Shown: in pieces, positions 35,316-52,463 of the stretch
How the letters are laid out: each line of letters opens with the position of its first letter
Numbering within the stretch: the first letter of the stretch is position 1
Source: an uncultured Maribacter sp.
GTDB lineage: Bacteria > Bacteroidota > Bacteroidia > Flavobacteriales > Flavobacteriaceae
Assembly: GCA_947498505.1 (NCBI GenBank)
Contig: CANMKG010000003.1
Coordinates: 372,001 to 436,000 of the forward strand
Length of the DNA stretch: 64,000 nt
Reading direction: 5' to 3'
Made by a program: the position numbers and the translations under genes
Notes under the pieces: generated by a model
Database searches by the model: none
What the model saw: only the letters and a program-made list of their open reading frames with translations
Told to the model about the DNA's origin: nothing

Positions 35316-37562
35316 TTAGTTAGTTGCGCCCACTTGTTGTAATAAGTTAATATATTGCTGGTTATTGGGTTCAATACGTAATAACTCTTTAGCATAAAAT
35401 ACTGCCTTTTGGTTGTCGCCATTTTTAGAAAATAAGTAGGCAGCAGTATACAATAAATCAACATTGTTAGGAGCAATAGTGATTCCTTTTAAAACAGTTG
35501 TTTTTGCAGAAGCAAAATCATTTTGTTTGTCATGCAATAAACATAAGTTATAGTATGCTCTGACATTTTGCGGCATATAAAGTATGGTTTTTTCAAACTG
35601 AATAATTGCTTTTTCTGGTTGATTTAGTTCGGCATATAGTAATCCTAAGGAATAGTAGGTTGGACCGTATTCTGGTTCTTGTTTGATAATAGTTTTAAAA
35701 GATTCTTCAGCCTTTAAGTGTTCACCATTACTATAATATAAATTCGCTAAGTTGGTACGTATTAGGTTGTTTATATTATCTATTTCAAGCGCTTTTTCGT
35801 AGTATTTTATACTTTCTTGAATATTACCTTGTCTTAATAAATAGCTTGCTCTTTTTGCGTTTCCTCCCGCAAAATCAGATATAACATCCAAAGAGGTATT
35901 AAATTCTTTTTTTACTTTTTGGTATACCTTTTTGTAGTTATCAGGAATTTGCTCTTCCTTAAGACGACTGATCCCGTAAAAAGCATTTATACGTACACTT
36001 CTTTTTTCGTCTTTTAAAAGAGGAAGCAAGTAACTCGCGTACTCTGTATTGTTGATTTCGCCAAGTAAATCTATGGTTGTTGCTCTAACTAATGGAGATA
36101 AATCATTCAAATACTGAAGCAGGTTATTTACATCGTTAATATTCATATAATCACGCATGGCTCTCATTGCTGAAGCACGGGCAATTTCTGGTTGAAGTGT
36201 GTCTTTTATTAACGTTAAAAGGGATTCTTTTCCATTTTCCTGTCCTGTTAAACCAGGAGCTAAAAGTTCTGAGAAATGTTGATAGTCCGGCACACCATAT
36301 TGTTTTTTGAAATTTTCCCAAGCCCATTCGTTGTCTTTGTCTTCGTGACATTGAATACATGCGTTTGGTGTATTGTATTTAATACTTAGGTCTGGTCGGG
36401 GAATTCTAAAACTGTGGTCTCTACGATAATCATTACCCATATAAAACCTACCAGTCATATGGCAATTTATGCATTGAGCTCCATCCGTATTCTTTTTGTG
36501 AAAGTGATGTTTAGAGGTATCGTATTTTTCCGGAACATGGCATTGAAGACATAGTTGATTGTCATTAAATTTTAACTTTAGAGAATGTGCATCATGGCAA
36601 TCAGTGCAAGTAACATCATTGTGGTACATTTTACTCTGTACAAAGGAGCCATAAACGTATACTTCGTCTAAAATTTGCCCATCGGGATGGTAAGTTTCAT
36701 TTGCAATTAGGTTTGGGAAATAATGATCTAATAAAGTCCCTTCAAAGTTATATCTTTCAGATATTTGCTCTCTTCGCATATGACATCTTGCACATTGGTC
36801 AACAAGTGTTTTGGAATCTGTTGCGGCAGTCATTTTTAGCTCCCCATGAGATTGGTATGCATCGCCAAGTGTTTTTGCGTTTTTAATATGGTTTTTACCT
36901 GGCCCGTGACAAGCTTCGCAGTTTACATTTATAAGCGCAAATTTGGTGTTATAACTATGGTTATTAGCGTCGTAATTTTTCCTAACATTGGTTGAGTGGC
37001 AGTCAGCGCACATATTATTCCAATTTAAAGCGCCACGAGACCAGTGCAACCATTCAGAATGTACTACTTTAAAATCTGGATACAGGTCAAACCATTCATT
37101 TTTTTTGGTATCCCAAGCAGTTCGTAAACATTGAAAGTGGCCATTTGGGAACTGCACAATATATTGCTGCAAAGGGGTTACTCCAAAGGTATATATAACC
37201 TTATAGTCATGGTATTTTCCATCAGGACCTTCTGTGTTTACATAAAAAGTATTGTTTTTAATGTAAAATTTGGATACAATACCTTGGTTAGTAAATTCCT
37301 CGCCCTTAAAAGGAGCTAAAACGGTATTTTCATCTGCAATTTGCATGGCTTTGTCATGATGCGAACCTTGCCAATCTTTAAACTCATTTTTATGACATTC
37401 TTTACACGCTTTATCGCCAACAAAGAGACTGTCGTGAATAGGTTTTGTAGAGGCGAATAATGAATCTTCCTTTGGAATGTTCTGATACTCTTTTTTTTCT
37501 GAACAGGAAAATTGAAAAAACACTAACAAGGATAAAAAAAAGGCAATAATTACAGATTTCAT
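35316..37562 (-). CDS. Octaheme cytochrome c / HEAT / TPR lipoprotein
   Basis: This 748-residue lipoprotein (signal to FQFSC, Cys20) has eight CxxCH haem sites: C53-H57, C185-H189, C215-H219, C257-H261, C319-H323, C338-H342, C364-H368 and C402-H406. Residues about 440-550 look like HEAT-type helical repeats (LLSPLVRATTIDLLGEI, RSVRINAFYGISRL). Residues about 590-745 are TPR units (YYEKALEIDNINNLIRTNLA, YNLCLLHDK, LLRIEPNNQQY). It probably moves electrons at the outer face of the inner membrane or in the outer membrane and docks partners through its repeats. The role in respiration is inferred. Confidence 0.9.
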   Translation of the reverse strand: MKSVIIAFFLSLLVFFQFSCSEKKEYQNIPKEDSLFASTKPIHDSLFVGDKACKECHKNEFKDWQGSHHDKAMQIADENTVLAPFKGEEFTNQGIVSKFYIKNNTFYVNTEGPDGKYHDYKVIYTFGVTPLQQYIVQFPNGHFQCLRTAWDTKKNEWFDLYPDFKVVHSEWLHWSRGALNWNNMCADCHSTNVRKNYDANNHSYNTKFALINVNCEACHGPGKNHIKNAKTLGDAYQSHGELKMTAATDSKTLVDQCARCHMRREQISERYNFEGTLLDHYFPNLIANETYHPDGQILDEVYVYGSFVQSKMYHNDVTCTDCHDAHSLKLKFNDNQLCLQCHVPEKYDTSKHHFHKKNTDGAQCINCHMTGRFYMGNDYRRDHSFRIPRPDLSIKYNTPNACIQCHEDKDNEWAWENFKKQYGVPDYQHFSELLAPGLTGQENGKESLLTLIKDTLQPEIARASAMRAMRDYMNINDVNNLLQYLNDLSPLVRATTIDLLGEINNTEYASYLLPLLKDEKRSVRINAFYGISRLKEEQIPDNYKKVYQKVKKEFNTSLDVISDFAGGNAKRASYLLRQGNIQESIKYYEKALEIDNINNLIRTNLANLYYSNGEHLKAEESFKTIIKQEPEYGPTYYSLGLLYAELNQPEKAIIQFEKTILYMPQNVRAYYNLCLLHDKQNDFASAKTTVLKGITIAPNNVDLLYTAAYLFSKNGDNQKAVFYAKELLRIEPNNQQYINLLQQVGATN

Positions 37563-41918: not shown

Positions 41919-42815
41919 TTATTTAAATTGATAATCTTTTATGTTTTCCGGACCTTCTAATAAAATTCTAACAATTTGCAGGGTGCCATCATCTTTGGTG
42001 GCAACCTGCCATTTTACGAGAGATATTTTTCCTTCTTCAATTTCAATTCCAGTAATACTTCTGGGGTGTACACAGCTGCCATCATTGAAGAAGGGAATAT
42101 CTCCAGGTTCTGGAAAACGAGGTCTGTGTGTATGACCAATAACGGTAATTTTATTATCGTTTTGAAGAATCCATTTTTTTACACGTCTTTCAACTTTTAT
42201 CAACTCCTTATGATTTTTAGCAGGACTCGTGGGGTCGGCTATTCCCCATACCTGAAGTGGTTTCCATAAAACCCTAACTAAAAACCTGTTAAAACGCCAG
42301 CCATGATAATTCATAAAATCAGCTTGATGACCATGCGTTAAAAATATTTCTTGATTAGTTTGTGTATGTTTTAAAATTATAGCTTCATTATAAACAATGT
42401 CTTTTAAGAGGTCTTTTTCTTTTTCTTCTTTGAAATCAAAATAATACGAAAGATGTTTTTTTACATAAGATTGATTTCTGTAAACCATATCATGATTTCC
42501 ATAAATCATATGTAACCTCCCTTTTTCATGATAAAGCTTTAATAGCTTATAAATATTCTTATGCGCTCTATAAATTGGTTCAAAAGATAAATTTTCCCAA
42601 AGCTCGTCTCCATCACCAAGCTCACAATATTGAAAATCATTTACAAAATAATGTTTTAAGGCATGATGGTAAATGTTTCGGTTATTAGCAAAATCGTCGG
42701 CAAAGCTATTATCCCCTCTATGGCAATCGCTAAATAGTATAAATTTAGAGGAATCATCAAAGGGTACTTCTTTAGCTGATTTATATGCTTTTGTTAGTCT
42801 GGTAAGGCTAGACAT
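41919..42815 (-). CDS. Cytoplasmic metallophosphoesterase
   Basis: This 298-residue calcineurin-like phosphoesterase starts at ATG 42815 (MSSLTRLTKAYKSAKE); an in-frame TTG farther up lies in A-rich sequence. Metal-binding motifs are DCHRGD, GDGDELW, YGNHDMVY, LTHGHQADF and IGHTHRPRF. It has no signal peptide. The GNHD and GHTH order resembles LpxH-like enzymes, but residues outside the core do not clearly match. Substrate is unknown. It converges with the TonB gene at a 5-nt gap. Confidence 0.85.
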   Translation of the reverse strand: MSSLTRLTKAYKSAKEVPFDDSSKFILFSDCHRGDNSFADDFANNRNIYHHALKHYFVNDFQYCELGDGDELWENLSFEPIYRAHKNIYKLLKLYHEKGRLHMIYGNHDMVYRNQSYVKKHLSYYFDFKEEKEKDLLKDIVYNEAIILKHTQTNQEIFLTHGHQADFMNYHGWRFNRFLVRVLWKPLQVWGIADPTSPAKNHKELIKVERRVKKWILQNDNKITVIGHTHRPRFPEPGDIPFFNDGSCVHPRSITGIEIEEGKISLVKWQVATKDDGTLQIVRILLEGPENIKDYQFK

Positions 42816-42940
42816 TTTCTTTTTTTTATAAATATGCAAAAAAAGCAACAAAGCATTATTGCTCTTCGTTGTTAAAATAAGCGATTTCTTTTGTAATTTT
42901 ATTTGTTCAGCGTAGACAAATAGGTTTTATACGAATAATT

Positions 42941-45301
42941 ATGAGTAAAGATTCACCTTTAGTTCATCACATTAGTTTTGAAAAGCTGTTGCAGCGATAC
43001 GATGTAATGGCTAAAAGTGATAATGAATTTTTAGCAGCGAATGCGAAGCGTATACTTGCTGTTCAAAAGGACTACCCTTTTTTAAGAGAAGGATTTACGG
43101 ATATAGCACTTTTAGAAGAACACAAAGACGTTATTCAATATCTTTTGCAAGATACTTTTACCGAAGTGTTAAGTGAGAACGAAATCAAGGTAGCTTCGTT
43201 ACCATACTACGATGTTATTTTTAATTCTTCAAAGCGTTTTCAAAAAATTGTAAAAAATGCTGGTCCAGATTTTACACCATTTATTAGAAATAAAGAGGAA
43301 GGCCTAGATTATATAATGAGTTGTGTGGTTATTTTAAAATTTTATTTTGGATTTCCGCTTGATTTTAGTCGACCAATGTTTTACGATATCCCTGATGCAA
43401 ATGGAGTAATGCATCATTACAGAGTTTTGTATAATGCAGATTTTTTGGAAGTATTACCAACGCAAAAAACTATTAAAATTACGCAAGACGATGTTAATGA
43501 GTTAATGGATGAACCTAATAACTTAGAATTATGGAAATCTAAAATTCCACCTAACAGTTTTATTTCTAAGGGGTTTGTGATTTCAAATATGTTTGATGTA
43601 ACTGCGGAACATTCCATTTCTGAAATAAAATCGGAGCTTATTGAAAGTGATAAACGCGGGAGCGATGATTTTATGATTCACTTAAAAGAAACATTCAAAT
43701 CGTTTTTTAAGCTTCCAAATATTCAGATAGGATTTTCTGTATATAATTCAAAAGAGCATCAACTGGAATCGGTTTATGGTAAGGGTATGATAAGCTTTAT
43801 TTTAAACGGGCGAGAAAAACTTTGTTGTAAAACCTCTTTACATGATGATTCTTGTAAAAAATTATTTACTGAGGGAGAATATATTGCAATACCCGATGTA
43901 GATAAGTATTATGAAATGTCTGATGGGGAAGAGCCCTTTGGTGGATTAAAAGCTCAAGGAATAAAGAGTATTATTTTGGCTCCAATATCTTCTGAAGGAG
44001 AATTGTTGGGTATGTTAGAAATTGCATCTGAAGATAAACATGTGCTTAATGGTGTTAATGCCAAAAAGCTTGATGATGTAATGCCATATATTGTCTCGGC
44101 TGTTCTAAGAACCAAATTGGAGGAAGAAAACCGTATTGATGCAATAATTCAAAACGAGTGTACATCAGTTCATCATTCAGTGCATTGGAAATTTCAAGAA
44201 GAAGCGATTCAGTTTTTAAAGGATGAGTTGCAGGAAAAACAGCCCTCTTTTAAAGAAATTGTTTTCAAAGATATTTACCCTCTTTATGGTCAAATTGATA
44301 TAAAGGATTCTTCAAAAGCTCGTAATAAAGCTATTCAGAACGATTTAATTATTGAGCTTTCGCTAATTAAAGATGTTTTGTTTGAGGTTTGGCAAAAAAG
44401 TAAACTTCCAATCTATGAGGAGTTAATGTTTAGGGTTAACAATCATTTAGATAGTATTAAAGAAACACTTTTTACCAATAGCGAACAGATAATATTTGAT
44501 TTTGTTAGAGATGAAATATCACCTGTATTTAAACATTTGAAAGATACTGATGAAGGTTTTAAAAATTTAATTACGGAGTTTAATTCGCAAATAAATTCAG
44601 ATTTAGAATCTTATTATGATCATCGTAAAAATTATGATGAAAGTGTAAAACTGATTAATAAAAAGTTGGCTTCGGTAATAGATGAAAAGCAGCTTGAAGC
44701 GCAAGAAATGTTTCCACATTATTTTGAGCGTTTTAAAACAGATGGCATTGAGCATAATATGTACATTGGAGACTCTATTGCTGAAGGAAAAGAATTTAAT
44801 TCAATATATCTAAACAACTTAAGATTGTGGCAATTACAGGTAATGTGTGATATGGAAAATACACATTATAGTTTAAAACCAGAATTAGGAGTAAAGTTAG
44901 ATGTAGCCTCGTTAATATTGGTATATAACGCTTCGTTGTCTATTCGTTTTAGAATGGATGAAAAACGTTTTGATGTGGATGGTACTTATAATGCCAGGTA
45001 CGAGGTTATAAAAAAACGAATTGATAAGTCTTACATAAAAGGTACTAAAGAGCGTTTGACTCAAGTTGGTAAAATGGTTATTGTATATTCTCAAAAGAAA
45101 GATGAGTTGGAATATCTTAGGTATATAAAATTCCTAAAATCTAAAGGGTACTTTACAGGAAAAATAGAAATCGTAGAGCTTGAAGGATTACAAGGTGTTT
45201 CTGGATTAAAAGCAATCCGTGCTGAAATTTTATATTCTTCAAAAGTGTCTTCAGAAAAAACTTTTACGTATCAAGATTTAATGAACGAGTTAAGGGATTA
45301 A
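42941..45301 (+). CDS. Large GAF-domain protein of unknown function
   Basis: This 786-residue cytoplasmic protein has no signal peptide or membrane segment. A GAF-like sensor domain spans about residues 245-390 (FFKLPNIQIGFSVYNSKEHQLE to IILAPISSEGELLGMLEIAS). It is followed by a segment with KDIYPLYGQIDIKDSSKARN and long alpha-helical, probably coiled-coil, sequence to about 650. The C-terminal ~130 residues (LRLWQLQVMCDMENTHYS onwards) I do not recognise. No kinase, cyclase or phosphodiesterase catalytic motif is evident. Its 3' end overlaps that of the HD-PycTM gene by 12 bp. A signalling role is likely but unproven. Confidence 0.75.
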   Translation: MSKDSPLVHHISFEKLLQRYDVMAKSDNEFLAANAKRILAVQKDYPFLREGFTDIALLEEHKDVIQYLLQDTFTEVLSENEIKVASLPYYDVIFNSSKRFQKIVKNAGPDFTPFIRNKEEGLDYIMSCVVILKFYFGFPLDFSRPMFYDIPDANGVMHHYRVLYNADFLEVLPTQKTIKITQDDVNELMDEPNNLELWKSKIPPNSFISKGFVISNMFDVTAEHSISEIKSELIESDKRGSDDFMIHLKETFKSFFKLPNIQIGFSVYNSKEHQLESVYGKGMISFILNGREKLCCKTSLHDDSCKKLFTEGEYIAIPDVDKYYEMSDGEEPFGGLKAQGIKSIILAPISSEGELLGMLEIASEDKHVLNGVNAKKLDDVMPYIVSAVLRTKLEEENRIDAIIQNECTSVHHSVHWKFQEEAIQFLKDELQEKQPSFKEIVFKDIYPLYGQIDIKDSSKARNKAIQNDLIIELSLIKDVLFEVWQKSKLPIYEELMFRVNNHLDSIKETLFTNSEQIIFDFVRDEISPVFKHLKDTDEGFKNLITEFNSQINSDLESYYDHRKNYDESVKLINKKLASVIDEKQLEAQEMFPHYFERFKTDGIEHNMYIGDSIAEGKEFNSIYLNNLRLWQLQVMCDMENTHYSLKPELGVKLDVASLILVYNASLSIRFRMDEKRFDVDGTYNARYEVIKKRIDKSYIKGTKERLTQVGKMVIVYSQKKDELEYLRYIKFLKSKGYFTGKIEIVELEGLQGVSGLKAIRAEILYSSKVSSEKTFTYQDLMNELRD

Positions 45302-46501
45302 AGCCTCAACTGCAATTGTTCTTTCTGGACCAAAAAATTTAAACGCTATTGCAAAAGCAATTACAGAAACTACCATTCCTATCATAAAAACCGTGTATGT
45401 CCAGCGTAAAATTTTGTATTTCCTATGTAAAACAAGTCCTAAAAAGTACAAATCTTTGGTTAGTGAGGAGTAAATGTATTTTTTATCTTTTACCAATTCG
45501 TTAATTGCCCATTCATATTCCGATAATTTCATTTTATGAAAATTACCAAAAAATAAAAGGTTTACCTTTTTTTGATTTACATCTTCCTTTGAAAACTCTC
45601 CACTGGTAACATTTGGTCGTGTAGCAAGCACTGCAAACACCATTGAAACTACACTAAATATTAAAAAAATAAGGGTTGGGTAAATTAAATAATCGTTCGA
45701 AGGGTTGTCTAGTTTAGGAATAAGGTTAGATAACGCTAAAGAAATAATAATAGCATTTACAGAGAGTAGAATGTTAGCTTTGGTATCAGCAATATTACTT
45801 AGCGTTATATGGTTTCTGAGGGTAACTCTAAAAAGGGTTTGTATTCCTCTATCTGGACTTTCGTTTTTATATTTAGCTTTTAAAGCTTCTTTTTTTGCAA
45901 TTTGTTTTTCGGCTTTTTTTTCTTTCACAAGTATTTTTAAATTTTTGTTTTTGCCTTCCTGCCAATTATTTTGAGCATAGTCTGTGTAAAACTGATGTTT
46001 CTCCCTAAACATTTGAATATTCATCTCAACCCACTCATTGTGTGAATAAGTAGCAATATCTAGAAGGCTTAATTCTTGTCGTAAGGTTTCTGTGGTTTCT
46101 AGATAACTTTTTTTGGCAAAGTGCGATGAATCTGCATCACGAAGTATTTTTTCGGGAAGGCTTTTGGGTTTAGCTTGCATCTGAGTAGCCATAATGCACT
46201 CCTCAATTGACTTAACCCTATCTTTATTGTATTCTTGCTCTTGAAGAAATTTAGAAGCAATTTTGCAACTGTTTTTTTCGTGGTTTTTGGTACCCTTAGT
46301 GTAACCAACATCATGAAGCCATGCTGCAAGAATAATAGCCTCGCTTTCATTTTCTTCAAGCTTATAAAAGTCTAATAATTCTTTAGTACTTTTAACTACA
46401 CGTTGGGTATGTTTTAGGTTATGGTATAGATACTTGCTATCTAGGTTGTTGGAAAGTAAATCCACAACAAATTTTTCAGTTTTTACAATAATTTCCGACA
46501 T
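45290..46501 (-). CDS. HD-domain / PycTM (DUF5706) membrane protein
   Basis: This 403-residue protein has an N-terminal HD phosphohydrolase domain (YHNLKHTQ, then AAWLHDVGYTKG, HEKNS, and LRDADSSHF; about 1-150). A Lys/Glu-rich linker follows, then a PycTM/DUF5706-like module from about residue 220 (GIQTLFRVTLRNHITLSNIADTKANILLSVNAI). Three membrane segments lie near 248-265, 276-297 and 375-397. PycTM domains are the membrane-disrupting effectors of Pycsar cyclic-nucleotide anti-phage systems. HD fusions of this domain also occur as chromosomal genes in Bacteroidetes. No pyrimidine cyclase gene is in the window, so a full Pycsar pair is not shown. Confidence 0.85.
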   Translation of the reverse strand: MSEIIVKTEKFVVDLLSNNLDSKYLYHNLKHTQRVVKSTKELLDFYKLEENESEAIILAAWLHDVGYTKGTKNHEKNSCKIASKFLQEQEYNKDRVKSIEECIMATQMQAKPKSLPEKILRDADSSHFAKKSYLETTETLRQELSLLDIATYSHNEWVEMNIQMFREKHQFYTDYAQNNWQEGKNKNLKILVKEKKAEKQIAKKEALKAKYKNESPDRGIQTLFRVTLRNHITLSNIADTKANILLSVNAIIISLALSNLIPKLDNPSNDYLIYPTLIFLIFSVVSMVFAVLATRPNVTSGEFSKEDVNQKKVNLLFFGNFHKMKLSEYEWAINELVKDKKYIYSSLTKDLYFLGLVLHRKYKILRWTYTVFMIGMVVSVIAFAIAFKFFGPERTIAVEALIP

Positions 46502-46554
46502 ACCATCTATGCTAATGTGTCCAAATTACAAATTTTATGGTGAAGAACGCCGAT

Positions 46555-49500
46555 ATGATTAAATATTACGTTTCCTTTTTATGCTTTTTTCTTGTTATCA
46601 GCTGTGCAACGGTAAAGGAAAAATATAAAAATTCTGAGAGCAAAGAAAACGTAGTTACTCAAAAAAAAGTTGCGCATACCTTTTACCTAATTGGAGATGC
46701 TGGATTATCGCCTAAAAATGGCATGAACAATACGCTAAAACAATTCAAAACAGTATTGTCTGAAGCAAACAAAAATAGCACAGCAATTTTTTTAGGAGAT
46801 AACATTTATCCTAGTGGACTTCCAGATAAAAAAAAGAACAAAAAAGAATATAGTAATGCGGTATCTCAATTAGATGCACAAATAGAAACTTTGAAAGATT
46901 TTAGTGGAAAGCCAATTTTTATTCCAGGTAATCATGATTGGTATGCTAATGGTTTAAAGGGACTTAAGAGACAACAAAACTATATTCAGGAGAAGTTAAA
47001 AAGTAAAAAGGTGTTTTATCCAAAAGATGGATGCCCCATTCAAAAAGTTGATGTTTCGGAAGATATTGTCATAATAGCTGTTGATACAGAATGGTTTTTA
47101 ACCGATTGGGATAAACATCCAACAATGAATGATGAATGTGAAATAAAGGATAGAGAAACATTTTTTCAAGAATTAGAAGGGTTAATTAAAAAAAATGAAA
47201 ACAAAACCACAATAATTGCAGCACACCATCCCATGTTTACTTATGGTACGCACGGAGGACAATTTTCATTTAAGAAAAGTATTTTTCCTGGTAAAAGTAA
47301 AATACCATTACCAATATTAGGTACTCTTGCGAATGTGTTAAGAAGAACTTCTGGAGCTTCAATAGAAGACTTGCAGAATAAAAAATACTTAGAATTACGA
47401 AGTCGTTTAGTTACGTTAGCACAATATTCTCAAAAAGTAATTCTTGTTTCTGGTCACGAACACAGTTTGCAATATATTGTTGAAAATAATACGCCGCAAA
47501 TAGTAAGTGGTTCGGGAGCTAAAAAGGGAGCCACACGTTTGTTAAATGGGAGTGAATTTTCTTCAGGGAAAAATGGTTACGCGGTATTAAAAGTATATGC
47601 AGATGGTTCCTCAAGAGTTGAGTTTTATGGTGTGTCAGATGAAAATAAAAATGAGTTTTTGTTTACTTCTGAAGTGCTTCCTGAGAGCATAAAAGAAAAT
47701 TCTAAGTGGGTTAAAAATACTTTTCCGGATAAAGTAAAAGCTTCAATATATACTAAAGAAGAAGTAGAAAAAGGAAAACTGTTTAAATGGCTTTGGGGAA
47801 ATAGATATAGAGAATTATATGCTAAGGAAATTACTGCTCCTACGGTGAATTTAGATACTCTTTTTGGAGGCGTAAAAGTAATTAGAAAAGGAGGAGGGCA
47901 TCAATCAAAATCCCTTCGTTTAGTAAATACAGAAGGCAAAGAATATGTGATGCGCGATTTACGAAAAAGTGCTCAGGTATATTTACAAGCAATGGCGTTT
48001 AAAAATCAATATGTTGTAGACCAAATAAAAGACACCTATACAGAACGATTACTAGAAGATTTTTATACAGGGGCTCACCCATATGCACCTTTTGTAGTTG
48101 GGAAACTCTCTGACGCTGTGGATGTTTTTCATACCAATCCTAGGTTATTTTATGTGCCAAAACAAAAGGTTATTAAAGATTATTTTCCAGAGTTTGGAGA
48201 CGGTTTGTATATGATTGAAGAGCGCACAGATGATGGTCATGGAGATCAAAAAAGTTTTGGATATGCCAATAAAATGATAAGCACTGATGATTTGCTAAAA
48301 AAACTCCGAATGGATGAAAAGTATAGTATTGATACTACTGCTTATGTTAGGGCTCGGTTATTTGATATGACGATAGGTGATTGGGATAGGCATGTTGACC
48401 AATGGCGTTGGGCAGAGTTTAAAGATAAAAATTCAGATAAAGTAATGTATAAACCTGTCCCTAGAGATAGGGACCAGGTATTTTCTATTATGGGAGACGG
48501 TGCTTTAATGAGTGTTATTACTAGAATTACGCCTTCATTATCCTTAATGGAGGGCTTCAATGAAGAAATAAGGAGTGTAAAAGGGTTTAATGGTTCTCCA
48601 ATGACTTTTGCATTAGATGTTGCTCTTCTGTCTGAAACTAAACTAAAAACATGGCTTTCTCAAGCAGAATATATTCAGCAACATTTAAAAGGCAATGTTG
48701 TTGATGAAGCGTTAAAAGAGTTTCCCGAGGAAATTAGGGGACTTCATGATGCTAAATTGAAAAAAACACTACTCTCTAGATTGCGAGCGTTAAAAGAAAC
48801 CGCAAGAGAATATTACCGTTTAGTAAATAAGTTTTCTATCATAAAAGGAACAGATAAAGATGATTATTTTACGATTACTGGAATAGCAAAAGGGAAAACC
48901 AAAGTTGAAGGACATCGCATAAAAAATGGGAAGAAGGCTGAAATGTTTTTTAGTAAAGTATATGATAAAAAAATTACTAAAGAAATATGGGTATATGGTT
49001 TGGATGATGATGATTTTTTTGAAGTAAACAATGTAAAAAACGGAGTTAAAAAAATACGTATTATAGGAGGTCAGAATAACGATAATTACAATGTTAAAAA
49101 TAGTAGAGGAGTTTATGTTTATGACCAGGCTGCTAAAAAAAATACATTTGACAATGCAAAAACAAAAACAGCTCATGTAAATCGTTCTAATAATTACGAA
49201 ACCAATACGTATCAACCTATAAAACTCAAAAGAAGTACAAATCAGGTACTGCCAGCAATTGGGGGAAATCCTGATGATGGTTTGTTAATAGGGGTTTCTA
49301 ATATTTATACATTGTACGGATTTCTACAAAACCCGTTTACGCAAAGGCATAGTATTAATGGAGCATTTTATTTCGCAACAAGAGGTTTTGATGTTGGTTA
49401 TAAAGGAGAGTTTGCCAGCGTTATTGGAAATGCAAATTTGGAAGTGGGGGCTAAATTCACTAGCCCTAACTTTAGTATTAACTTTTTTGATTATGGAAAT

Positions 49501-50274
49501 AATACCCAAAATTTTGATGATGATTTGGGGTTGGACTATAACCGCGTGAAATTGCAAATAAATTCGTTTTCTTCTGCATTGGTTTGGAGAGGTGATATGG
49601 GGTCTGTAATACGAACAGGTTTTGACTATACTTCAATTGAAATAGAGGAAACTGAAGATAGATTTATTAACGAATATATTGATGCTTCAGAAATCGATAA
49701 TGACAAAGATTTTCTTAGTATTGAAGGGCAATATGCTTATAAAAATTCAGATAATAATGCTTTTCCAACAATAGGAATGGCTGTGGGCCTAACTGCGGGA
49801 TATACAATTAGCGTAGATGGGAATGGTAAAAATGTTGGGTATATAAAACCAAGTTTTTCTATTGATTATAAATTAGTTCCAAGTGGAAAATTAGTGCTAG
49901 CTTCAAAGTGGAAAGCGCACCTGAATTTTAGTGATACTTTTGAAATATATCAGGCAGCTAGCATTGGTGGTACTGACGGTCTGCGAGGGTTCCGAAATCA
50001 GCGTTTTACAGGAAGAAAAGCATATTATCAAAATACGGATTTACGATATAATCTCAAACGTATTAAAACAGGAGTGTTACCAATGTCTTTTGGCTTTTTT
50101 GCCGGATTTGATTATGGTCGTGTTTGGTTAACTGGAGAAAGTTCTAATAGGTGGCATACCTCAAAAGGAGGTGGTTTTTTCTTGAACGGTGCAGACATTG
50201 TTTCCGCTCGTGTAGCACTTTTTAATAGTGATGACGGTTTACGCTTTTCTTTTGGACTAGGTTTTGGCTTTTAG
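46555..50274 (+). CDS. Outer-membrane phosphoesterase / kinase-like / Omp85-barrel lipoprotein
   Basis: This 1239-residue lipoprotein (MIKYYVSFLCFFLVISC; ATG 46555 preferred to 46537) has four regions. (1) About 30-330 is a calcineurin-type phosphoesterase: YLIGDAG, FLGDNIYPSG, PGNHDWYANG, AAHHPMF, SGHEHS. (2) About 430-720 is an uncharacterised segment with D609-W-D611-R-H613 and, 25 residues on, R637-D-R-D640-QVF, reminiscent of the catalytic and metal loops of CotH/HipA/Fam20-type kinases. (3) About 745-870 has Asp-rich turns (GLDDDDFF, GGQNNDNY), perhaps a beta-roll. (4) About 880-1239 is an Omp85-type barrel with GGTDGLRGFRNQRFTG and terminal Phe. Assignments 1 and 4 are firm; 2 and 3 are inference. 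Confidence 0.85.
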   Translation: MIKYYVSFLCFFLVISCATVKEKYKNSESKENVVTQKKVAHTFYLIGDAGLSPKNGMNNTLKQFKTVLSEANKNSTAIFLGDNIYPSGLPDKKKNKKEYSNAVSQLDAQIETLKDFSGKPIFIPGNHDWYANGLKGLKRQQNYIQEKLKSKKVFYPKDGCPIQKVDVSEDIVIIAVDTEWFLTDWDKHPTMNDECEIKDRETFFQELEGLIKKNENKTTIIAAHHPMFTYGTHGGQFSFKKSIFPGKSKIPLPILGTLANVLRRTSGASIEDLQNKKYLELRSRLVTLAQYSQKVILVSGHEHSLQYIVENNTPQIVSGSGAKKGATRLLNGSEFSSGKNGYAVLKVYADGSSRVEFYGVSDENKNEFLFTSEVLPESIKENSKWVKNTFPDKVKASIYTKEEVEKGKLFKWLWGNRYRELYAKEITAPTVNLDTLFGGVKVIRKGGGHQSKSLRLVNTEGKEYVMRDLRKSAQVYLQAMAFKNQYVVDQIKDTYTERLLEDFYTGAHPYAPFVVGKLSDAVDVFHTNPRLFYVPKQKVIKDYFPEFGDGLYMIEERTDDGHGDQKSFGYANKMISTDDLLKKLRMDEKYSIDTTAYVRARLFDMTIGDWDRHVDQWRWAEFKDKNSDKVMYKPVPRDRDQVFSIMGDGALMSVITRITPSLSLMEGFNEEIRSVKGFNGSPMTFALDVALLSETKLKTWLSQAEYIQQHLKGNVVDEALKEFPEEIRGLHDAKLKKTLLSRLRALKETAREYYRLVNKFSIIKGTDKDDYFTITGIAKGKTKVEGHRIKNGKKAEMFFSKVYDKKITKEIWVYGLDDDDFFEVNNVKNGVKKIRIIGGQNNDNYNVKNSRGVYVYDQAAKKNTFDNAKTKTAHVNRSNNYETNTYQPIKLKRSTNQVLPAIGGNPDDGLLIGVSNIYTLYGFLQNPFTQRHSINGAFYFATRGFDVGYKGEFASVIGNANLEVGAKFTSPNFSINFFDYGNNTQNFDDDLGLDYNRVKLQINSFSSALVWRGDMGSVIRTGFDYTSIEIEETEDRFINEYIDASEIDNDKDFLSIEGQYAYKNSDNNAFPTIGMAVGLTAGYTISVDGNGKNVGYIKPSFSIDYKLVPSGKLVLASKWKAHLNFSDTFEIYQAASIGGTDGLRGFRNQRFTGRKAYYQNTDLRYNLKRIKTGVLPMSFGFFAGFDYGRVWLTGESSNRWHTSKGGGFFLNGADIVSARVALFNSDDGLRFSFGLGFGF

Positions 50275-50275
50275 T

Positions 50276-51127
50276 CTACTTTAAGGTATACGAATACAAA
50301 TTTCTTCCTGTTGGACCTTTTTTCTCGTCGGATAGAAGTAATTTATTGTTGTCAATAAAGCAAACAGATTCTAATTGATTGGTGGTTTGTAAATCTATGG
50401 TTTCCATTTTTCCTTTAGAAAATTTTTCTCCAGTAAAGTTGGTAATCACAAATAATCTTCCGTAGCTCAATAACACTAATTTTTTTCCATCTGGAGAAAT
50501 ATCTGCTGAGGTTATCTGGCAATAATTCCAATCTGAACACATGTTAAATGTGTCTATTAATTGAGCAGCATGCTTGCCCTTTTTTGCAGGTATTTTGTAT
50601 ACTAGAGCCTCACCATTGAAAGGGTTTGCTCTATTTTTTGTAATAATGTAAAGGTTCTCGTTTTGGTAAAAAAGAGCTTCTGCATCATAATAAAGATTCT
50701 TTTTTTTGGGAGGAAACTTAGTTTGTTCAGGATAATAGAATGAGATAGCTTCTGACTTAATTTTATTTCCTTTCTCCACTTGGGGGTTAGGTATTTTATA
50801 TATAACTAAGTTTTTACGTTTGTTTTCGTTGTTACCAATGTCACCTATATATACGTTATCAAAATTGTCTTTGGTTAAATCTTCCCAATCTATATTTTCG
50901 CCTTTTTTAACAGATAACTTTTTTACAATTTCTCCTTTAAAATTGACTTCGTAGATTTCATTTTTATTACCACCATCCTCCACTAGCCATGCGCTTGAAT
51001 TATTAAAAGATACAATGCCTGAATTTTCGGTTAATCGTTTAGGCAAATCGGTAATTAAATTTAATTTACCATGATTAGTACAACTGTAAATTAATATTAC
51101 TGAAAGTAAAGTGGAAAACTTAAGCAT
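50276..51127 (-). CDS. Beta-propeller-like lipoprotein of unknown function
   Basis: This 283-residue lipoprotein has a signal to ILIYSC (Cys16). The rest is short beta-strand blocks with repeated patterns such as SGIVSFNNSSAWLVEDGGN, WEDLTKDNFDNVYIGDIGN, YDAEALFYQNENLYIITKN, ADISPDGKKLVLLSY and LESVCFIDNNKLLLSDE. These resemble blades of an NHL- or esterase-type propeller. It lies 1 nt after the haloperoxidase-type gene and converges 1 nt from the Omp85 gene. The partner is unknown. Confidence 0.75.
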   Translation of the reverse strand: MLKFSTLLSVILIYSCTNHGKLNLITDLPKRLTENSGIVSFNNSSAWLVEDGGNKNEIYEVNFKGEIVKKLSVKKGENIDWEDLTKDNFDNVYIGDIGNNENKRKNLVIYKIPNPQVEKGNKIKSEAISFYYPEQTKFPPKKKNLYYDAEALFYQNENLYIITKNRANPFNGEALVYKIPAKKGKHAAQLIDTFNMCSDWNYCQITSADISPDGKKLVLLSYGRLFVITNFTGEKFSKGKMETIDLQTTNQLESVCFIDNNKLLLSDEKKGPTGRNLYSYTLK

Positions 51128-51128
51128 A

Positions 51129-52463
51129 TTATTTGGCTGTCATTTTTAAGGAATTAATAACATGTTTGCCTAAATCTCTTCCTTGTTTTACACCTACCTC
51201 AACTGCGGCTCTGTAATGGATACCTCCATACATTCTGCTAATTGCAGCTTCGTCAGCTGCTTCACTGAAAGAATTAAAGCTACGTACGGGTAGACCGTAA
51301 GGAATTTCAGTGTCATCATCAAAGTAAAAATTGTCACCAAAAATGTTAGTTAATGCAATACTTGCTGCTCCTGAAACCACACTATGTCCACTGGTGTATT
51401 CTGGAAAAGGAGGTGTTTGTAATATTGGCTCCCAATTTTCATCAATATGCTGATTAATTAAAGTTTCAGGGCGAATAAGATTACTTCGGTATTTTTCGTC
51501 CCAGCAGCTAATAAAGGCATCCGCTATTGCAATAGATGTTTTCGTATAAGCGTAAATAGTTTTGTCAAAATCGCTATTTGTTTTTAATGCGGCAATTTTA
51601 ACAATGCCAATCCAATGTGCTCCCGGACTTATTTTTTTGGATGCAAACATAAGGTGACCTCTTGTGATAGATACGTAAGGGTTACAATCCCAGAACTGTG
51701 CTATGGCAATTTCTTCAGAATTATCTCCATCTTCGGTAATTTTCATACTAATGTCATAAACTTCTTTTAGTTCTTTATAAAAGAGAGACTTTTTATCTAA
51801 TGAAAACTCTGGAGGTGGAACAGGCTTAAATTGTTGAGCAGAATCAATTGCAAATGGGCGAATTTTATTCCAATGAGGCTCAATTCCATCCATATAAGCA
51901 GGAGGTGTTGGCTGCCAGCGACTCGGGTTATTCATGTCAACAGCAAATTTTGGCATGGTACGAGTTTCATTATAATTATCATTTTCCATCCATTCTGCAA
52001 TATGCTTTGCTACCTGTAATCCATAGGTTTTTGAGGCTTCAAATTGTTGAAGGTTTTTATTTTGCCAAATACTGTATAAACTATCTCTATAAGCATGTAA
52101 TTTTTCTCTGGTATGTATTAAACGTTGACTAACATCTATATGTGCAATTAAGGCTGACATTTGATAGTTAATAGGAGTAGAGGTATCTGCTTTTGGAATT
52201 GCAGTTAGTTCTTTTACTTGATTTTCTAATGAGGTATAATTGCTATTGTTAGAAGCGATTATTTCGTACGCAGCTATATTCGGATAAACAAAAACTCTAC
52301 TAGCCACGGGAGGAGAAAAAATATCGTGAATCATAATATCCACTACATTGTCAATAGCCGAATGAAGTTCATTTGGGGTAATTGTTATGGTGTTTTTTTC
52401 TTTTTCAGTTTTACAAGAAGTAAGTAATAGAATTACTAAAAGAGTGTAAAATATCTTTTTCAT
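51129..52463 (-). CDS. Vanadium-dependent haloperoxidase/PAP2-type lipoprotein
   Basis: This 444-residue lipoprotein has a signal to VILLLTSC (Cys17). It belongs to the PAP2/vanadium haloperoxidase superfamily: a block EYTSGHSVVSGAAS with the acid-base His, and ISRMYGGIHYRAAVEVG with the metal-ligand His. A helical bundle precedes these. Members in marine Bacteroidetes act as haloperoxidases or acid phosphatases. Halide preference cannot be read here. It forms an operon with the propeller lipoprotein downstream. Confidence 0.9.
   Translation of the reverse strand: MKKIFYTLLVILLLTSCKTEKEKNTITITPNELHSAIDNVVDIMIHDIFSPPVASRVFVYPNIAAYEIIASNNSNYTSLENQVKELTAIPKADTSTPINYQMSALIAHIDVSQRLIHTREKLHAYRDSLYSIWQNKNLQQFEASKTYGLQVAKHIAEWMENDNYNETRTMPKFAVDMNNPSRWQPTPPAYMDGIEPHWNKIRPFAIDSAQQFKPVPPPEFSLDKKSLFYKELKEVYDISMKITEDGDNSEEIAIAQFWDCNPYVSITRGHLMFASKKISPGAHWIGIVKIAALKTNSDFDKTIYAYTKTSIAIADAFISCWDEKYRSNLIRPETLINQHIDENWEPILQTPPFPEYTSGHSVVSGAASIALTNIFGDNFYFDDDTEIPYGLPVRSFNSFSEAADEAAISRMYGGIHYRAAVEVGVKQGRDLGKHVINSLKMTAK

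Follow-up and report, generated by a model that had tools for sequence, protein, structure and literature searches.

A predicted kinase-fold domain joined to a phosphoesterase and an Omp85-type barrel in Bacteroidota envelope proteins

What might be the function of a protein that begins as a phosphoesterase, ends as an outer-membrane barrel, and has no recognizable family in between? We asked this of one open reading frame (ORF) in a 64,000-nucleotide stretch of an uncultured Maribacter sp. (contig CANMKG010000003.1, positions 372,001 to 436,000; hereafter the window). The ORF, at window positions 46537..50274 on the forward strand, encodes 1,245 residues with a lipoprotein signal, a phosphoesterase, a kinase-fold domain, a beta-rich linker, and an Omp85 barrel. 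A preliminary description of this DNA had proposed that a phosphoesterase, a kinase-like segment, and an Omp85 barrel are joined in one polypeptide, and Pfam and structure models bear this out. We think it somewhat probable that the protein is a Bacteroidota envelope enzyme that is anchored in the outer membrane and transfers phosphate. Our literature searches gave no earlier account of the kinase-fold domain, of its fusion to the other domains, or of its gene linkage to the polyphosphate kinase PPK1; the linkage to PPK1 and PycTM also goes beyond the preliminary description. The genome holds a single copy, and the nearest locus is from an uncultured Maribacter (92% identical in the best segment).

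A predicted kinase-type fold in the middle of the protein

Pfam, run on the whole ORF, recognized only PF00149 (residues 48-244) and a ShlB-type barrel (residues 1106-1203) and left the middle blank. Within this blank lies the kinase-fold domain (residues 420-775; 47794..48861, forward strand), which also occurs apart from the other domains. AlphaFold, given residues 420-900 and 27 aligned proteins (the relatives share 37-94% identity across the domain and 31-92% across residues 46-1245), returned a kinase-type fold with a pLDDT of 84.9 and a pTM of 0.87; a model of residues 46-1245 reached 82.5 and 0.78, respectively. The model of residues 420-900 runs from three N-terminal strands through helices, more strands, and a further helix (model residues 181-194) to a GDWDRH loop, two strands, and an RDRD loop. 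When it was compared with the PDB by Foldseek, all 19 chains matched at an E value of ≤0.001 were kinases or kinase-like proteins, including CtkA, Rio2, COQ8A, STK33, HipT, HipA, PI4KIIa, and a MAP kinase. At the level of prediction, the domain thus has a protein-kinase-like fold, as had been supposed.

The identity of the kinase relative is less clear. The preliminary description had named CotH, HipA, and Fam20C as comparisons; HipA does appear among the fold matches, but CotH and Fam20C are absent from the best 50 of 697. The atypical kinases HipA, CtkA, and type II PI4K are among the best fold matches (3akk, 4pu3, 7ab4, and 4yc4), but the domain has no Pfam match to these kinases: the HipA model PF07804 matched none of the 27 aligned members at E values up to 10, and the HipA_C match in this genome is a different gene on contig 8. 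Direct comparison with HipA by hhalign gave a probability of 0.2%, with only 5 of 24 HipA loci passing the motif filter. The proposed CotH-type assignment had to be dropped, as the Pfam CotH model (PF08757) matched nothing in this genome, nor any of the 27 aligned members at E values up to 10. The motifs themselves (GDWDRH...PRDRDQ) nevertheless resemble GNWDNY...IPYDYDNT of CotH, found in 12 of 16 loci, and hhalign, which 12 of the 16 fetched CotH loci entered, aligned both motifs with a P value of 1.3e-4 and a probability of 54% from 98 diverse rows, or 5.6e-4 and 30% from a narrow alignment. These values are suggestive, lying below significance, and on the motif alignment a remote relation to CotH is possible.

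Residues 44-385 (46666..47691, forward strand) form a calcineurin-like metallophosphoesterase that PF00149 matches with an E value of 2e-9 and 38.5 bits, against a cut-off of 21.5. Its motifs are GDAG (residue 53), GDNIY (87), GNHDW (131), HHP (230), and GHEH (306), and across 73 rows the Asp, Asn, and His residues of GDAG, GDNxY, GNHD, HHP, and GHxH are conserved in 70 to 73. We take the set GDxG, GDNxY, GNHD, H, and GHxH to be purple-acid-phosphatase-like; in agreement with this, a Foldseek search with the full model found GAP50 (3tgh) at rank 15, a match attributed to this domain. The protein differs from that fold group in the fusion of its phosphoesterase to a kinase fold and a barrel.

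C-terminal to the kinase fold, a beta-rich, Asp-rich linker (residues 776-900; 48862..49236, forward strand), with strands in the full model and the turns GLDDDDFF and GGQNNDNY, occupies the position of the POTRA domains of other Omp85 proteins. D823, D826, D849, and D863 are invariant in the 27 proteins, and these turns, for which calcium binding had been suggested, might bind metal to judge from their conserved Asp residues; a Pfam scan of the 1,245-residue protein matched no calcium-binding family. The remainder (49237..50271, forward strand) is predicted to form a 16-strand barrel like those of BamA and TamA, which would place it in the Omp85/TpsB superfamily. BamA (4k3c; E value, 1.3e-11) and the TamA barrel (4n74; TM score by target, 0.79) are among the top Foldseek matches of the full model. 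The ShlB-type Pfam match scores 23.6 bits against a cut-off of 22.7, and the sole NCBIfam match, to the model Omp85_fam (NF047779), covers residues 1101-1240 with an E value of 2.4e-11 and 43.8 bits, below its cut-off of 200. Omp85 proteins characteristically carry (V)RGF in the loop that joins strands 11 and 12; here GLRGF stands between those strands (residues 1074-1086 and 1116-1132), and its R1105 and G1106 are invariant in the 27 proteins.

At the other end, a signal sequence with the lipobox VISC and Cys23 (46537..46605, forward strand) points to a lipid anchor. The start at 46555 given in the preliminary description is an internal Met (Met7) of the longer ORF opening at 46537, yet it is the likelier start, because the n-region before the lipobox is then short, the more usual length. 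We keep full-ORF numbering throughout, so that the earlier D611, H613, and D640 are D617, H619, and D646 here. The residues after the lipobox, CATVKEKY, are presumably unlike a surface-export signal. In known Omp85 proteins, the soluble N-terminal portion is mostly periplasmic, and by this analogy the periplasmic face is likelier than the cell surface for the enzyme domains. The anatomy of the preliminary description was right and its surface kinase plausible, with "surface" its weakest part.

Phosphoesterase-barrel fusions as such have been described before. An Omp85 "Metallo" subfamily, with PF00149 N-terminal to the barrel and no POTRA domains, was defined in 2014 by Heinz and Lithgow (PMC4104836), and the present protein fits it by the article's definition rather than by its member list. 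There, PF00149 was read as a metalloprotease, the subfamily was called conserved only at the genus level, and Omp85 diversity was described as expanded in Bacteroidetes/Chlorobi; in the article's text as available, the word "kinase" occurs 0 times. Some forms that lack the phosphoesterase might belong to its "noNterm" barrels, which are similar to those of Metallo. The main text of a 2025 study of the Flavobacterium BAM complex (PMC12611786) does not contain the words phosphoesterase, phosphatase, or kinase, and among the openly licensed papers that our searches returned, no title or abstract opening describes the kinase-fold domain, its fusion, or a link to PPK1. One possible homolog already under study is a Riemerella anatipestifer metallophosphoesterase (AEM 2021), which a review lists as a type IX secretion system effector.

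Candidate active-site residues and their conservation

The model offers candidates for the active-site residues of a kinase. A glycine-rich loop, GGGHQSKS (residues 452-459; 47890..47913, forward strand), lies between the first two model strands, and Lys477 (47965..47967, forward strand), a candidate nucleotide-binding residue, follows directly on the third; R473 is the other candidate for this role. The candidate catalytic loop, GDWDRHVDQW (residues 614-623; 48376..48405, forward strand), with D617 as the presumed base, comes after the helix at model residues 181-194, and RDRD (residues 643-646; 48463..48474, forward strand) is the candidate metal-binding site. The two motifs from which the kinase had been proposed, DWDRHVDQ (615-622) and PRDRDQVF (642-649), are both present, 27 residues apart from start to start. 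The candidates for glycine loop, basic residue, catalytic Asp, and metal Asp are of the right kinds and at plausible places in the model. Fold and residues together suggest kinase activity, with the caution that other chemistries also run on a kinase fold.

A predicted fold unrelated to kinases, or loss of the DRH and DRD residues in homologs, would have counted against this assignment; the model is kinase-like, and in full-length proteins the Asp and His residues of both motifs are conserved. Among 72 rows from ORFs of more than 1050 residues, a set that retains near-duplicates, including two copies of the window's own gene, G453, Q456, R473, K477, D508, D615, D617, R618, H619, Q622, W623, D644, and D646 are present in every one, R643 in 70, and R645 in 69. 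GDWDRH, DQWRW, and RDRD are likewise invariant columns in the 27 aligned proteins. Some of the rows come from 35 loci that were retrieved with six peptides; because one peptide (FDMTIGDW) overlaps the motif, these rows are not a neutral sample. The other rows were retrieved with a profile spanning the entire domain.

Conservation is looser elsewhere in the family. Proteins in which the domain is followed only by the linker keep K477, D644, and D646 in 10 of 10 rows and D617 in 7, and stand-alone domains keep K477, D617, D644, and D646 in 4 of 4, not counting a fragmentary fifth row. In barrel proteins without the phosphoesterase, by comparison, K477 is found in 10 of 13 rows, D617 and D644 in 9 each, and D646 in 8; six of the 13 look degenerate (L085 and L089 to L093), having lost one or more of these four residues, and three further barrel proteins (L094 to L096) have part of the kinase-fold domain only. 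Within this sample, then, proteins with the phosphoesterase retain the residues, and some of those without it have lost them.

In three loci of one family (f9; L067, L068, and L069), linker-only genes are divergently arranged, some with GDWDRHEGQW and the facing ones with GDWSRREDQW, which lacks the presumed catalytic Asp; by these motifs, the facing genes resemble a kinase and pseudokinase pair. Fam20 kinases include such pairs of active and pseudokinase members. The kinase-fold group shares this feature with Fam20C, along with the idea of a secreted kinase, and differs from it in having no Pfam match to the Fam20C family.

Architectures, spread, and neighboring genes

The kinase-fold domain is a separable module, found in four architectures: phosphoesterase-kinase-linker-barrel (type I; about 1200 to 1395 residues, divided over two ORFs in L081), kinase-linker-barrel (type II; about 840 to 960), kinase-linker (type III; about 500 to 590), and the kinase alone after an N-terminal hydrophobic stretch (type IV; about 430). 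A tree of 82 kinase-fold domains, some joins of which rest on long branches and are unsure, requires at least six changes of architecture. The domain profile, run on Bacteroidota genomes, found it in 142 of 395; a scan of genome contigs with the single protein found 35 loci, all of which we place in Bacteroidota. Five of 72,556 plasmid records match, from Hymenobacter, Persicobacter, and Parabacteroides, and one Hanstruepera locus (L018:5949-14289) has two full-length copies near each other. By a crude expression, ORFs of more than 1050 residues carry a lipobox in 30 of 71 cases and a hydrophobic N terminus in 36, with 5 unclear; over all types, 93 of 101 ORFs have one or the other, and the 8 unclear ones comprise 5 of type I, 2 of type II, and 1 of type III.

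We examined the linkage of the domain to other genes at 111 kinase-fold gene places (some weak matches are missing) in 80 genomes. These genomes were picked by hand from the 142, with 8 of the 37 from the window's own family and with several weak-match genomes omitted. They were picked before the search for PPK1, although a nearby PPK1 had already been seen in two, G353 and G140, from which L076 and L077 come. A PycTM gene lies within 10 kb of 61 of the 111 (58 of 80 genomes and 20 of 24 families), counting short proteins without an HD domain, such as that in L133. PPK1 lies within 10 kb of 30 (25 genomes and 10 families), where a uniform estimate for a 4.2-Mb genome predicts about 0.75; that estimate ignores shared ancestry, while contig breaks act in the opposite direction. 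For types I to IV, respectively, the linked genes are 14 of 61, 15 of 37, 0 of 9, and 1 of 4 for PPK1 and 42 of 61, 19 of 37, 0 of 9, and 0 of 4 for PycTM. Both partners are near the same kinase-fold gene in 21 genomes, and near kinase-fold genes that may differ in 23. Three loci (L129, L130, and L132) have a one-strand run of HD-PycTM, PPK1, SdiA-regulated-type, phosphoesterase-kinase-barrel, and GAF genes. A SixA-like phosphatase family occurs in 12 of 26 loci (the example in L120 is below the SixA cut-off), a count that is not neutral because 20 of the 26 were picked for a nearby PPK1.

In the window itself, the gene is flanked on the reverse strand by an HD domain and PycTM membrane protein (45290..46501; PF18967 E value, 1.6e-37; PF01966 E value, 5e-8) and by an SdiA-regulated-type lipoprotein (50276..51127; PF06977 E value, 1.4e-5), which we take to be propeller-like. 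These are conserved neighbors, their families being present in 39 and 27 of 56 loci, respectively, and the SdiA-regulated Pfam type also stands beside the distant homolog in L129. A 786-residue protein with a weak GAF match below the cut-off (42941..45301, forward strand) is a third (30 of 56). The adjoining locus encodes a PAP2-type phosphatase lipoprotein (51129-52463; family in 16 of 56), which may be a second envelope phosphatase in this neighborhood, and a second calcineurin-like phosphoesterase, without an obvious export signal, lies two genes away (41919-42851; 14 of 56). Farther off, eight ORFs of 788 to 822 residues, with one of 346 among them, stand in a row on the forward strand at 970-21334 and, judged by their lengths alone, are possible tandem paralogs. 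An ORF at 35316-37562 has multiheme-cytochrome and TPR family matches, both below their cut-offs.

A proposed mechanism and its rivals

We propose that the lipid anchor present in many members and the 16-strand barrel would fix the two enzyme domains at the outer membrane, most likely at its periplasmic face. There the glycine-rich loop, Arg473/Lys477, and RDRD of the kinase-fold domain would hold a metal-bound phosphate donor, and Asp617 would act as the base in phosphorylating an envelope substrate, which could be a protein or an outer-membrane sugar or lipid. The phosphoesterase domain would take off or process that phosphate, so that the two activities may oppose each other, and the whole would share a pathway with the PycTM membrane protein, joined in some of the phylum by PPK1.

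Several findings weigh against this reading. The Foldseek scores are modest (best E value, 2.9e-5; CtkA TM score by target, 0.50 to 0.57, at 10% identity), a level in keeping with a remote family; the 27 aligned members have no Pfam match to any kinase family worth the name at E values up to 10; and a PDB sequence search at E values up to 1 found no match to the 1,245-residue protein or to the domain profile. Some members lack the candidate residues or most of the kinase-fold domain. The linker-only genes show no linkage to either partner, and in the window's own family PPK1 lies within 10 kb in only one of eight genomes, at a stand-alone kinase-fold gene. This genome has PPK1 and a SixA-like gene on a contig other than that of the kinase-fold gene; on the PPK1 contig, the next gene, of about 303 residues, resembles an exopolyphosphatase by eye. 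The PPK1 neighborhood thus leaves out the linker-only genes and, in the window's own family, the full-length ones, so that what can be inferred from PPK1 is limited. Finally, the periplasm is generally thought to be without ATP, which makes the phosphate donor an open question, one for which the PPK1 linkage offers polyphosphate as a testable candidate.

That linkage also suggests a different machine, one that handles polyphosphate at the envelope: PPK1 would make the polymer inside, the kinase-fold domain at the outer membrane would use it as a donor or transfer phosphate to or from it, the phosphoesterase would trim it, and the barrel might serve the chain as a passage or an anchor. The excess of nearby PPK1 genes over the uniform expectation and the one-strand runs in L129, L130, and L132 speak for this idea, which would also answer the missing-ATP problem. 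PPK1, however, is cytoplasmic, no exporter was identified, and PPK1 is missing from the 10 kb around 81 of the 111 genes, including nearly all those from the window's own family, a shortfall that contig breaks explain in part; moreover, we know of no kinase-fold enzyme that uses polyphosphate. We consider it unlikely, if the most credible of the alternatives. Slightly more doubtful is a protein that is mainly an outer-membrane assembly or export factor, in which the working part is the barrel, and the phosphoesterase and the kinase fold, catalytically weak or dead, stand in for POTRA domains in a binding or regulatory capacity. Insertion or export of proteins is the typical task of Omp85 barrels, and the barrel-fused members with degenerate residues or a partial domain would fit such a role, but both motif sets are intact in the full-length members, and the linker-only and stand-alone forms have no barrel at all.

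Two further readings concern the chemistry and the setting. The fold could serve another nucleotide-dependent reaction, such as AMPylation or glutamylation: SelO carries out AMPylation on a kinase-like fold, and glutamylation by SidJ is reported to run on one as well. The candidate residues look conventional, unlike those of SidJ and SelO as we know them, and we hold this to be improbable. Least credible, to the point of being very improbable, is an anti-phage or stress module driven by the PycTM partner, to which the phosphoesterase-kinase-barrel protein would contribute the envelope part. Pfam and PADLOC both list PycTM as a Pycsar effector family, and in L133 (152-2730) a short PycTM gene without an HD domain and a nucleotide-cyclase/TPR gene adjoin each other beside the phosphoesterase-kinase-barrel gene as a Pycsar-like pair by Pfam, with genes of the same two families in L084. 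Against this, PADLOC matched no family to the phosphoesterase-kinase-barrel protein, giving it no known defense-system membership, nor any to the GAF or SdiA-regulated-type proteins, and a position shared with PPK1 by distant families looks like a housekeeping locus.

The envelope phospho-transfer enzyme remains the reading that we favor. To our knowledge, bacteria seldom have kinases outside the cytoplasm, and how such enzymes obtain their phosphate is a standing problem. In a bolder version, which we put forward as speculation and would not bet on, a phylum-wide set of extracytoplasmic kinases would work without ATP, taking phosphate from polyphosphate made by PPK1, which is a neighbor in some of these bacteria; the fused phosphatase and the Omp85 barrel would complete a single outer-membrane phosphorylation and dephosphorylation machine. 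Independent of that version, a widespread Bacteroidota kinase-fold domain that no family model in the searched databases covers, mostly carrying export signals, is here found fused to a phosphatase and a barrel, and it offers a reading of the middle part of phosphoesterase-Omp85 fusions such as those of the Metallo subfamily. The adjacency of PPK1 in some Bacteroidota hints at phosphate chemistry in a compartment with hardly any known kinases, and the finding makes phosphorylation in the Bacteroidota envelope directly testable.

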